This document shows, in pieces, positions 12,290-42,981 of a DNA stretch of 64,000 nucleotides. Numbering within the stretch: the first letter of the stretch is position 1; each line of letters starts with the position of its first letter. Under the pieces are notes generated by a model. It made no database searches. It was not told the origin of the DNA and worked only from the letters and a program-made list of their open reading frames with translations. The DNA is from Phycisphaeraceae bacterium (GTDB lineage: Bacteria; Planctomycetota; Phycisphaerae; Phycisphaerales; Phycisphaeraceae). The stretch lies in NCBI GenBank assembly GCA_020851735.1, contig JADZCD010000020.1, positions 1 through 64,000 on the forward strand, written 5' to 3'. A program made the translations under genes and the position numbers.

Positions 12290-12748
12290 AGAGATTCACC
12301 GCCGAGGACGCCGAGGACGCAGAGAAAGACAAGGAATTAGGCCGGGGATGAATGCAGATGGACGCGGATGAATGCGAAGAAATTGATTGTTTGAGGATAT
12401 TCGCCGCGGAGGGCGCGGGAGATGTCCAGGCGTGCTTTGTTCAAGACAGGTAAGACGACCCAGGCATGGCCCCCGGAAATGCCTGGGCTTGGACAAGGCA
12501 GAGAAGGCAGGCACACAGCAGGCTTCGCGATGCTGGGTGGCACCCGAGCGAAGGCAGGGCTTTATACCCTCACCGTTCGGCAGAGCTCACGGCCGAGGAC
12601 CTGCCCTCTCCGTGACAGGGAGAGGGGGGACAGGAACGCGGCGATCTGCGATCGCCCGCTAAACGGGCAGATGCCCAGGGAAGGAATCCCTGGGCTTTAT
12701 ATTGGCAATGATGGCAGGCGCACGGCGGTGGAGTCGAGGTTGTGCTAT
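12290..12748. repeat. Composite repeat cluster between convergent genes
   Basis: This 459-base gap is nearly all repeat: type F (TTCACCGCCGAGGACGCC, from 12295), ATGAATGCAGATGGACGC units, an A variant CCCAGGCAT...ATGCCTGGG (12459-12487), type H (12511-12545), type G carrying insert J (about 12566-12630), type B (GGCGATC-tgc-GATCGCC then CGCTAAACG, 12640-12666) and type A (12674-12694). All asymmetric modules lie in the plus orientation. Open frames across it are artefacts of repeat DNA. Confidence 0.85.
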
Positions 12749-13987
12749 CTAGGCCCCGAAGAGGTTGGGGGGTTGGAACATGTTTTTTTGGCGGAAGTAG
12801 TCGAGGGCTTCGTCGGTGGTTTTGAAGACCTTGGTGGCGGTTTCGGTGACGAAGGGTGAGGGGCTGCGGCGGGGACGCCAGACGACGTAGACTTCCTTGC
12901 CGTGCTCGTGGGCGTGCTGGAGTTCGCGTTCGACGCCGCTGGACAGGCCGGGGATGCCGAAGGATTCGGGGGAGGAGGCGGAGGCAGGCACGGCGATCTG
13001 CGATCGCCCGCTAAACGAGGAGGATGGTGATTCACCGCTTACTGACGTGCGCGGCTCGTTGATGCAGGCGATTGCGGGGGCGGGGAGTTCGGGGACGTAG
13101 CTGACGATCATGTCGGACTGGTCGATGAGTTTGAAGTCGCGGGCGTAGATCTGGCCGTCGATGTCGCCGGCGATGTCCAGGACTTGTTTGACGGAGACGG
13201 GGAAAGACTGGGGCGTGTCGTCGCCTAGGAGGCCGTGGCCCTGGATGAAGTCGCGGCTCTGCGTGGCGGCGGCGATGGCGGAATCCAGGAGGAGTTTTTC
13301 ATCCACGTCGCCGGGGTCGAAGGTGATGAATTGTTCGGCCAGGCGGCGGCGGAAGTCGTTGATCTCGGCCAGGACGGCGGGCATGCCGACGACGTGGGTC
13401 ATGGGGAAGGAGGGGTAGACCTTGCGCATGGTGGGGCGACAGACCAGGCGGAAGACGGTTTCGACGGTCGGCTCGTGGCGCCCGCGGGCGAGGATGTAAA
13501 AGCGCTGGGCGCAACCCAGAGCCTGGGCGAGCAGCTCGGTGGCCATGATCTCTTCCTCACGCCAGACCATCAGGTCCTTGAGGGAAACGTCCAGGGTGTG
13601 CTCGCCGTGCAGGCGGCGGTGGACGACTTCGATGTTGTCCACCAGGCAGATGAGCATGTCGGGGGCCAGGGCGCGGGCCTGGTCGAAATCAAAGGCGCTA
13701 AAGAGGCCGTGCCGCCAGCGGAAGGTGGCGTGGGTGTTGACGAGGATGTGCTTGTATTTGGCGGATTCGGTGATGATGTCCTTAAAGGCGGAGCGGCGGA
13801 GGGAGGAAAGGCGGGAGAGGGGCAGGTCGAGGATGCGCCCGGGCGAGAGGTCGGGGGCTTCGGCGTACATCATCTGCCCGACGTTGTAGAGGGCGACGGA
13901 CTCGCCGCGCTCGGAAGCTAACTGCACGACGCGCTGCAGATAGGGCCTTTTGTCCATTCCGACCTGGCCGGTGACGATGGCGCGCAT
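12749..13987 (-). CDS. P-loop nucleotide-kinase-like protein with deoxyribosyltransferase-like C-terminus and repeat insertion
   Basis: A 412-residue protein from the ATG at 13987 (MRAIVTGQVG). The N-terminal half looks like a divergent P-loop/adenylate-kinase fold (IVTGQVGMDKRPYL, then HILVNTHATFRW and DMLICLVDNI). The C-terminal part, from about residue 280, resembles nucleoside 2-deoxyribosyltransferase-like domains: QIYARDFKLIDQSDMIVSYVPELP followed, after an interruption, by IPGLSSGVERELQHAHEHGKEVYVVW. Residues about 308-344 between these two pieces are encoded by repeat types C and B (NEPRTSVSG and FSGRSQIAV) in frame. Substrate and reaction are not known; a nucleotide-handling role is inferred. 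Confidence 0.6.
   Translation of the reverse strand: MRAIVTGQVGMDKRPYLQRVVQLASERGESVALYNVGQMMYAEAPDLSPGRILDLPLSRLSSLRRSAFKDIITESAKYKHILVNTHATFRWRHGLFSAFDFDQARALAPDMLICLVDNIEVVHRRLHGEHTLDVSLKDLMVWREEEIMATELLAQALGCAQRFYILARGRHEPTVETVFRLVCRPTMRKVYPSFPMTHVVGMPAVLAEINDFRRRLAEQFITFDPGDVDEKLLLDSAIAAATQSRDFIQGHGLLGDDTPQSFPVSVKQVLDIAGDIDGQIYARDFKLIDQSDMIVSYVPELPAPAIACINEPRTSVSGESPSSSFSGRSQIAVPASASSPESFGIPGLSSGVERELQHAHEHGKEVYVVWRPRRSPSPFVTETATKVFKTTDEALDYFRQKNMFQPPNLFGA
12956..13066 (+). repeat. B + C repeat modules inside a coding region
   Basis: Type B (GGCGATC-tgc-GATCGCC, CGCTAAACG) at 12992-13017 is followed by type C (GCTTACTGACGTGCGCGGC TCGTT) at about 13038-13061. The A hairpin that separates B and C in the intergenic copies at 24681 and 26414 is absent. 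On the minus strand the block is translated in frame in the surrounding gene. Confidence 0.85.
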
Positions 13988-14393
13988 GAGTGTTCCTTGT
14001 CTGTCAGCCAACCACCTCTGGGGCACGCTACGCTTAGCCCCAGCCACCCTCCGGCACCGGACGCAATGCCGGCCCCACCTTTCCAGGTGGGGCTATATCG
14101 AATCCCAATACGGGCCCCGCATTTCCATGCGGGGCTACCCCCGGAAGCAGTCTCGCCCCCGGAAGTCGTGTCGCCCCCGGAAGTGCCCACGGAAGTAATT
14201 GCCGCGGCGGAGACTTAGCGGGGGAGCGCACGTGGGCGGGGGCGATTATATCGGCTGGGCGGGGGCGGGCCCGGTTGTGTTCGGTGGGGGGATGGTGCAT
14301 CATATGGTTTGGACCCGTTCACGAGTTCTTGCCGGGAACGGGGAGGTAGGAGTCCGGTCACCGCGTCCCAACACCTTTCTGGGAGCCAGCGTC
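13988..14393. repeat. Repeat-rich divergent intergenic region
   Basis: From left to right: type I hairpin CTGGGGC...GCCCCAG (14018-14043), two D-like palindromes (CCCCACCT-ttcc-AGGTGGGG, 14073-14092, and CCCCGCAT-ttcc-ATGCGGGG, 14115-14134) and a run of CCCCCGGAAG units (about 14143-14195). The two D stems differ by paired changes that keep complementarity. The last 190 bases, up to 14393, are repeat-free and should carry the floA promoter. Confidence 0.8.
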
Positions 14394-24556: not shown

Positions 24557-24796
24557 GTTTGTTGATCCTAAGAGGCGGGGGGACGTGGGGGAAATAACTG
24601 CTATTTCTCTGGGGCACGCGGCCCCCGGAAGATACTAAGTGGCATCTGACAGCAGGCACCCGGCAAGTCACTGGCAAGACGGCGATCTGCGATCGCCCGC
24701 TAAACGGCGTGGAGTGCCCAGGGATTTCTTCCCTGGGCTTTAATCCCCCGCTTGCTGACGCGCGCGGCTCGTTGGGAGGGCGCTTCCGGGGGGGGG
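24557..24796. repeat. Intergenic region with composite B-A-C repeat
   Basis: The composite occupies 24681-24773: B hairpin (GGCGATC-tgc-GATCGCC, CGCTAAACG), then A hairpin (CCCAGGGA...TCCCTGGG, 24717-24737, CTTTAAT), then C (ending GCGCGCGGCTCGTT). It differs at only 3 of 93 positions from the copy at 26414-26506. Degenerate I/E/H fragments (CTGGGGCACGCGGCCCCCGG) lie at about 24609-24660. Confidence 0.88.
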
Positions 24797-26179: not shown

Positions 26180-26587
26180 AGCCTTATGTTCTCCCAAAAC
26201 GGGGCCCGGCTCGCAAATAGAGGGGCGGGCGATCAGGAATGAGCCTGGTGGTTTATCGGGAGATTGGGGGGAGGTGGATTGGGCGAAGGGGTGATGGGGT
26301 GAGTAATAAGAGGTTGGGGAAAAAGCTGGAAGACTGAAATGTGACCCCCCGGCAGAGCCGGGGGCTGAATCCAATGTGACGTGATGCCCTGTGGAAATCG
26401 TGGCGGCAGATACGGCGATCTGCGATCGCCCGCTAAACGGCGTGGAGTGCCCAGGGATTTTTTCCCTGGGCTTTAATCCCCCGCTTACTGACGTGCGCGG
26501 CTCGTTAAGGCAAGCGCTGGCGGGGGGTGGGGGGAAACATCCGGGCGAACATGGTAAAACAACCAACCCTATCTGAGGAGTTCTGCG
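26180..26587. repeat. Divergent intergenic region with composite B-A-C repeat
   Basis: The composite B-A-C lies at 26414-26506, a near-identical partner of 24681-24773, so two copies flank murA in direct orientation. The stretch 26340-26370 (CCCCCCGGCAGAGCCGGGGG) is a further hairpin. The promoter of murA should be in 26180-26330; the region just before apt (26540-26587) ends with GAGGAG. Confidence 0.85.
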
Positions 26588-42006: not shown

Positions 42007-42981
42007 ATGATGCCGCAGCCAAACATCACCCGTTGTCCGAACAATCCCATCCTCACCGCCAAAGAGGTGCCGTATCCGTCCACGCTGGTGTTCAATGCCG
42101 GCGTGACCCGCTATCGCGGGCAGTATGTGATGGTCTTTCGCAATGACTACGGCAACTATCGCGGCACGTATCACTTTGACGGCACGAACCTGGGGCTGGC
42201 CACCTCCGGCGACGGCATCCACTGGCGGGTGGCGCCGCAACCCTGCTGGGAATGGCAGGATGAGGAAGTCCAGCGCGTTTACGATCCGCGGCTGACGGTT
42301 CTGGACGATCGCTGCTACCTGAGTTTCGCCGTCGACACCCGCCACGGCATCCGCGCGGGGCTGGCGATTACCGAGGATTTCAAGCATTTTGAGGTGCTTT
42401 CCCTCTCGGCGCCGGACAATCGCAACACGGTGCTGTTTCCCCAGAAAATCAACGGGCAATTCGTCCGCTTGGAACGCCCGTTTCCGGTGTATTCCTTGGG
42501 CGCGGGCGAACATTTTGACATTTGGCTGTCCACCTCACCGGACGGCCGACACTGGGGCAACACGCGCCTGGTGCTGCCGCATGAGCGCGTGCCGTTTGCC
42601 AACGCCAAGATAGGTCCGGGCGCTCCGCCCCTGCGCACCAAGCGTGGCTGGCTGACCCTTTTCCACGCCGTGGACATCAACCCCAATCGCCCGCTGAACG
42701 GCTGGGAGCCTTCGCCCTGGACCAAGCGCTACACCATCGGGCTGATGCTGCTGGACCTTAACGAGCCCTGGCGGGTCATCGGCCTGTGTCCGCAGCCTTT
42801 GATGGTGCCCGAAGCCCCCTACGAACTGGACGGATTCCGCGGCGGCGTGCTTTTTCCCGGCGGATTCCTTGACGAACCCGACGGCACGGTAAAGATCTAT
42901 TACGGGGCGGCCGACACGGTTCAGGCTCTGGCGACGGCGGACCTTCATGAGCTGCTGAATCTTTGCCAGCCGGTGGGGTAA
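42007..42981 (+). CDS. Family GH130 glycosidase (beta-mannoside phosphorylase type)
   Basis: A 324-residue five-bladed propeller of family GH130. NPILTAKEVPYPSTLVFNAG (residues about 9-28), VYDPRLTVLDDRCYLSFAVD and AKIGPGAPPLRTKRGWLTLFHAVD are the family blocks holding the catalytic Asp and phosphate-binding Arg/His; GGVLFPGGFL..VKIYYGAADT closes it. These enzymes phosphorolyse or hydrolyse beta-mannosides. Two ATG codons (42007, 42010) are possible; an ORF start at 41950 adds unconserved residues. With the GH2 beta-mannosidase this makes mannan-fragment use likely. Confidence 0.85.
   Translation: MMPQPNITRCPNNPILTAKEVPYPSTLVFNAGVTRYRGQYVMVFRNDYGNYRGTYHFDGTNLGLATSGDGIHWRVAPQPCWEWQDEEVQRVYDPRLTVLDDRCYLSFAVDTRHGIRAGLAITEDFKHFEVLSLSAPDNRNTVLFPQKINGQFVRLERPFPVYSLGAGEHFDIWLSTSPDGRHWGNTRLVLPHERVPFANAKIGPGAPPLRTKRGWLTLFHAVDINPNRPLNGWEPSPWTKRYTIGLMLLDLNEPWRVIGLCPQPLMVPEAPYELDGFRGGVLFPGGFLDEPDGTVKIYYGAADTVQALATADLHELLNLCQPVG

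Follow-up and report, generated by a model that had tools for sequence, protein, structure and literature searches.

The host gene and its extra block

Within the window (the 64,000-nucleotide stretch of planctomycete DNA analysed here), a minus-strand open reading frame (ORF) of 432 codons at 12749–14047 encodes a conserved P-loop protein, with a predicted start that is likely at 13987 (MRAIVTGQVG). The protein comprises an N-terminal adenylate-kinase-like AAA_17 domain, for which archaeal adenylate kinases are the match, and a C-terminal α/β domain. It appears to be enzyme-like. Orthologues were found in 39 of 40 relatives, whose nameable contigs belong to Phycisphaeraceae and other Phycisphaerae metagenome-assembled genomes (MAGs), and no second full-length copy was found in the gene's own genome, a draft MAG of 3.56 Mb in 69 contigs.

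Comparison with these orthologues, which the sequence-only reading had proposed as its check, revealed an extra in-frame block at 12959–13078 (minus strand), comprising 120 bp or 40 codons and corresponding to residues 324–363 of the 432-aa ORF, with edges placed to within about one codon. The block was looked for in 39 relatives, 29 of them in a multiple alignment, and was found in none. The relatives' alignments end at query residues 321–325 and nearly always restart at 362–364, with few or no bases in between. In the multiple alignment, PELPG directly abuts GIPGLSS in most of the 29 orthologues, and the 40 residues are extra in this genome's protein; outside the block, the flanks are 66–74% identical to the orthologues. 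Repeat-derived sequence had been located at 12956–13066 from the letters alone; the location holds, and the extent is slightly wider. Three orthologues (L010, L014 and L021) contain short unrelated insertions at the same site; the loop is therefore permissive.

An AlphaFold2 model built with 38 sequences (mean pLDDT of 83.9, pTM of 0.83) predicts the block as a disordered loop in an otherwise confident structure. Residues 305–341 of the 412-aa form have a pLDDT of about 30, whereas the rest of the domain is mostly above 90, and the disordered segment sits between a strand (293–298) and a helix (350–361). The earlier suggestion that the insertion splits the C-terminal domain at a loop is thus borne out by both the orthologue alignment and the model.

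Nearly all of the 120 bp resembles repeat material, and the block aligns as a whole to other mosaic copies. On the plus strand, a G-rich leader (12959–12991), resembling the leaders of other B copies such as L137, is followed by a B module at 12992–13017 (GGCGATCTGCGATCGCCCGCTAAACG), which consists of the hairpin GGCGATC-TGC-GATCGCC and a CGCTAAACG tail and is read on the minus strand as FSGRSQIA. A 17-bp linker (13018–13034), nearly the same as that in L092 on contig C32, leads to a C module at 13035–13060 (CCGCTTACTGACGTGCGCGGCTCGTT), composed of CCGC-TTACTGACGTGC-GCGG and a CTCGTT tail and read on the minus strand as NEPRTSVSG. A degenerate C tail (GATGCAGGCGATTGCGGGGGCGGGG; 13061–13085), similar to the tails of other C copies, runs into host sequence past 13078. 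The B module matches at 26 of 26 positions a form found 36 times in the genome, and the C module also matches at 26 of 26; both modules lie in frame with the translations first proposed. The closest copy of the block is L092, which has the same B–linker–C order plus a TTCCGGGG-type repeat within the B loop. GCAGGC flanks the insert on either side but is not claimed as a target-site duplication, since it may equally belong to the sequence that normally surrounds the repeats. A B–A element (12640–12699) lies downstream of the host gene, about 50 bp past its stop codon, and its hairpins could serve as a terminator.

The B and C repeat families

When up to three mismatches are allowed, the 3.56-Mb genome contains 104 copies of B and 76 of C, and reversed control patterns of both gave no matches in the same sequence. 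The B and C matches in the host gene are therefore far beyond chance. B forms a hairpin with a 7-bp stem; C pairs weakly and imperfectly. Both are REP-like elements, that is, high-copy hairpins that are mostly extragenic, each linked to a resident HUH/Y1 transposase. By inspection, a terminal GTAG or CGTC tag is absent from the ends of the listed B and C copies. An Rfam search of the window returned one tRNA only, and the modules match no known RNA family.

The sequence-only reading held that a third module, the A hairpin, usually separates B from C and is missing from the host gene perhaps because its sequence would not be tolerated. Intergenic B–A–C composites were seen at two sites only, 24679–24773 and 26412–26506 (both on the plus strand; previously given as 24681 and 26414). 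B–C without A also occurs in L092, L068, L115, L152 and five tandem units at L114. Because of this distribution, A is not the usual middle piece, and composites without it are the commoner form. Nor did the frame check yield a stop-based reason for excluding A. It did reveal open frames in both modules: two per strand in B and, in C, one on the plus strand (PLTDVRGSL) and one or three on the minus strand, depending on an A or G variant. The full B–A–C unit is open in the same minus-strand frame as the insert (NEPRTSVSGGLKPREKIPGHSTPFSGRSQIA), and stop codons were rejected as the cause of A's absence.

The L114 array (contig C43:17633–18126) consists of five tandem B–C units of 117 bp each; as a coding repeat it was rejected, its open frames scoring negative for coding potential. 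A second B type, with another stem (GGGACCTTCGGTCC or GGGGCCTGCGGCCC) and the same CCCGCTAAACG tail, represents compensated hairpin variants and is present in the 15678 region of the window and at L062, L071, L083, L087, L091, L106, L110, L135, L151 and L152. Repeat nesting is seen in L092, L077, L081 and L108, where a TTCCGGGGG-type repeat lies within the B loop. Further abundant repeat families are CTTCCGGGGGCGG, CCCCCGGCNGAGCCGGGGGCTGA and TGCTGTGTGGCACCC.

In-frame copies in other genes

A census was performed with a codon-usage classifier on 516 kb, comprising the window and stretches around B and C copies. The classifier placed 29 of 217 B or C copies in genes with an open frame, compared with 290 of 600 random window positions; therefore, like REPs, they are under-represented in genes. 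For eleven more copies, the flanks are coding on one strand and the frame is not open across the element. Because some of the 29 calls are doubtful (those at window position 42684 and at L101 position 1926 are coincidental weak B matches, and L133 may concern an N-terminal extension only), our estimate is that B or C lies in frame in about 25 ORFs here, most with Pfam support. The host gene, introduced as the third gene with such repeats, is thus one of many. The carriers include gatB, queA, cysE, rsmE and priA, as well as genes for DsbD, CcmF, a CapD-type epimerase, an HrpA-type helicase, DUF1015, SCO1, TauE and others, several of these names being Pfam-based only. The peptides encoded by in-gene copies are PLTDVRGSL/PLADARGSL, NEPRTSVSG/DEPRASASG, TSRARQQAV, AICDRPLN, RSPAKR and FSGRSQIA.

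Five carrier proteins were aligned to relatives of solved structure, and in each the element lies inside an expansion present only in the query: GatB (query 442–494 versus residues 391–407 of 3al0_B), QueA (120–194 versus 117–153 of 1vky_A), a BioF-like protein (208–243 versus 179–183 of 5jay_A), CysE (164–231 versus 100–121 of 9u39_A) and RsmE (188–280 versus 158–192 of 5o95_A).

Transposases linked to B and C

Six Y1-transposase matches were found in the genome at the Pfam cut-off. One, a protein of 193 aa encoded on contig C24, has inverted B copies on its flanks; a homologue in the relative G008, 56% identical, is also flanked by B copies. Another, on contig C15, has a C pair on each side in inverted orientation, and inverted C copies surround class 3 TnpA genes both in this genome and in most relatives with a nested copy (described below). 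Class 3 TnpA_Y1 has been described as a planctomycete-rich group with high-copy REP-like flanks, an NHVH plus Y----Q signature and a 5′ foot CnGA (PMC6006769). The C15 protein contains the motifs TNHVH and YVVDQQ, and its HUH and Y----Q motifs assign it to this class. It resembles the described members in these motifs, in its planctomycete host and in its high-copy flanking structures (PMC6006769); for the foot CnGA, the REPs flanking C15 are present but gave no confident match. The HxH motif is kept in all 38 sequences compared, and the Tyr-Gln motif is also retained.

Across 61 genomes, C-type elements accompany class 3 genes (9 of 11 genomes, versus 11 of 50 without them; Fisher p = 3e-4 in a test that ignores kinship). 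Because 11 genomes have C-type elements and no class 3 match, enzymes other than class 3 may also move C. The C24 and C15 transposases are most likely the candidate movers of B and C, respectively.

Origin of the block

We propose that the block combines two mobile repeats of the REP type, inserted as a mosaic into a permissive β–α loop of a single-copy P-loop gene and tolerated there, and assign this reading a probability of about 0.85. B and C would be non-autonomous and would most likely depend on the HUH/Y1 transposases of C24 (B) and C15 (C) for their movement, in the form of single-stranded DNA. The mosaic, perhaps with B and C arriving together, would have entered the loop and survived because its overall length is divisible by three and its minus-strand frame has no stop. 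The host protein would thereby have gained a polar, disordered loop of 40 residues and presumably still works.

The repeats might instead have spread by recombination or gene conversion among dispersed copies, a route that would suit the observed mosaic composites, nested copies and tandem array of 117-bp units at L114. We consider this unlikely, given that B and C each have an HUH/Y1 transposase gene with copies of that repeat on its flanks and that copy-to-copy conversion is insufficient for entry into the loop of a unique gene. It is somewhat less likely still that the host gene is a recently damaged pseudogene with an insert awaiting purge. The undecayed B and C cores do allow a young insertion, but the frame is wholly open, the flanks remain conserved at the 66–74% identity noted above, 39 of 40 relatives keep an orthologue and the genome has no second full-length copy; moreover, gatB and valS are examples of other single genes with the same outcome.

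Selection of the block for a useful loop function in regulation or interaction, beyond mere tolerance, would suit an insert that occupies a loop in a protein of nucleotide-binding type. However, the same peptides are present in unrelated proteins and the block is predicted to be disordered, and we regard such a function as very improbable. Least credible is an assembly artefact that placed repeats within the gene: although the genome is a repeat-rich draft of 69 contigs, both gene halves lie on one 88-kb contig, ordered and in frame, and an artefact would not preserve the frame in about 25 ORFs.

Relation to known in-frame repeats

In-frame intragenic REPs are an already known kind of element, and the B/C insert in the host gene is a variant of it. 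De Nocera and co-workers described them in O. terrae, R. conorii, Thauera and other organisms and suggested that they form linkers or loops (PMC3733652). B and C resemble the GTAG/CGTC REPs of, for example, Opitutus terrae in lying inside ORFs and encoding peptides of tens of residues in presumed loops or linkers, but differ from these superfamilies in the absence of the terminal GTAG or CGTC tag (PMC3733652). As cited in the same work, Rickettsia palindromic elements (RPEs) are palindromic and in frame within genes, the products of which are likely functional. As far as RPEs are portrayed there, B and C share with them the lifestyle only, that of short palindromic repeats in frame in genes, whereas their phylum is different, their sequences are presumably different, and B and C each have a resident Y1 transposase with repeat copies on its flanks. 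The present cases show that REP elements can repeatedly add peptides to housekeeping proteins beyond Rickettsia and Opitutus, with a candidate enzyme now named for each repeat. Two questions become testable: by what means selfish single-strand transposons escape purging, and how new loops originate in proteins. For annotation, the presence of PLTDVRGSL, NEPRTSVSG, AICDRPLN or PLPHGRGS in these planctomycete proteins marks the footprint of a mobile element.

A transposase nested in tRNA synthetase genes

The C15 transposase itself (L073, contig C15:1–3681) lies within one uninterrupted ORF that has valyl-tRNA synthetase domains on either side. Aligned to the T. thermophilus ValRS (1gax), query residues 466–701 stand in place of residues 365–375. 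In the first set of relatives, the block is missing from most valS genes, and a class 3 TnpA is present at the same loop in six others. Of 298 genomes from across the taxonomic class, 72 have a class 3 hit at E ≤ 1e-20. Among the fetched loci, class 3 TnpA was in frame at the first ValS site in 11 (L073, L265–L270, L285–L287 and L289), at another ValS site in 1 (L301), in AlaS in 6 (L292–L297) and in a DUF1156 gene in 3 (L288, L290 and L291); AlaS was identified by Pfam for L292, L294, L296 and L297 and by the same flanking sequence for L293 and L295. C-type REPs flank the ValS-nested copies, and nearly all nested loci have them on both sides, translated as PLPHGRGS-like and SRDREGA-like peptides. 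In a tree, nested copies are intermixed with free-standing ones, with 8 label changes against a least possible 5, which gives modest support to the suggestion of several entries into, or exits from, host genes.

Inteins are nuclease-type parasites that sit in essential genes without disrupting the frame, repeatedly at the same sites. The nested transposases resemble them in these respects, a comparison of lifestyle only, but Pfam scans of the nested ORFs detected host domains and Y1_Tnp and no intein or splicing (Hint) domain, and the block apparently stays in the protein. We consider it rather more probable than its contrary that class 3 REP transposases of Phycisphaerae persist together with their REPs in frame inside valS (at two sites), alaS and the DUF1156 gene, translated as catalytically intact domain insertions, in a niche that resembles that of inteins but involves no splicing. 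These nested copies would seed the short REPs that are tolerated in frame in many genes, including that at 12749–14047. A transposase surviving inside essential tRNA synthetases is indicated. In the open-access literature searched, we found no report of a Y1/REP transposase in frame inside tRNA synthetases. Nesting in frame in valS, alaS or a DUF1156 gene, along with a CnGA foot that is not clearly seen, sets the C15-type proteins apart from described class 3 members; the study describing the class set aside proteins of unexpected length, treating them as fusions or as errors of annotation (PMC6006769).

Two further arrangements were observed. In G142 (L294), two class 3 copies are present in one frame of 1686 aa, and in G028 (L271) and G040 (L280), a different Y1-type protein with a DHVH motif lies in frame at the same valS loop.
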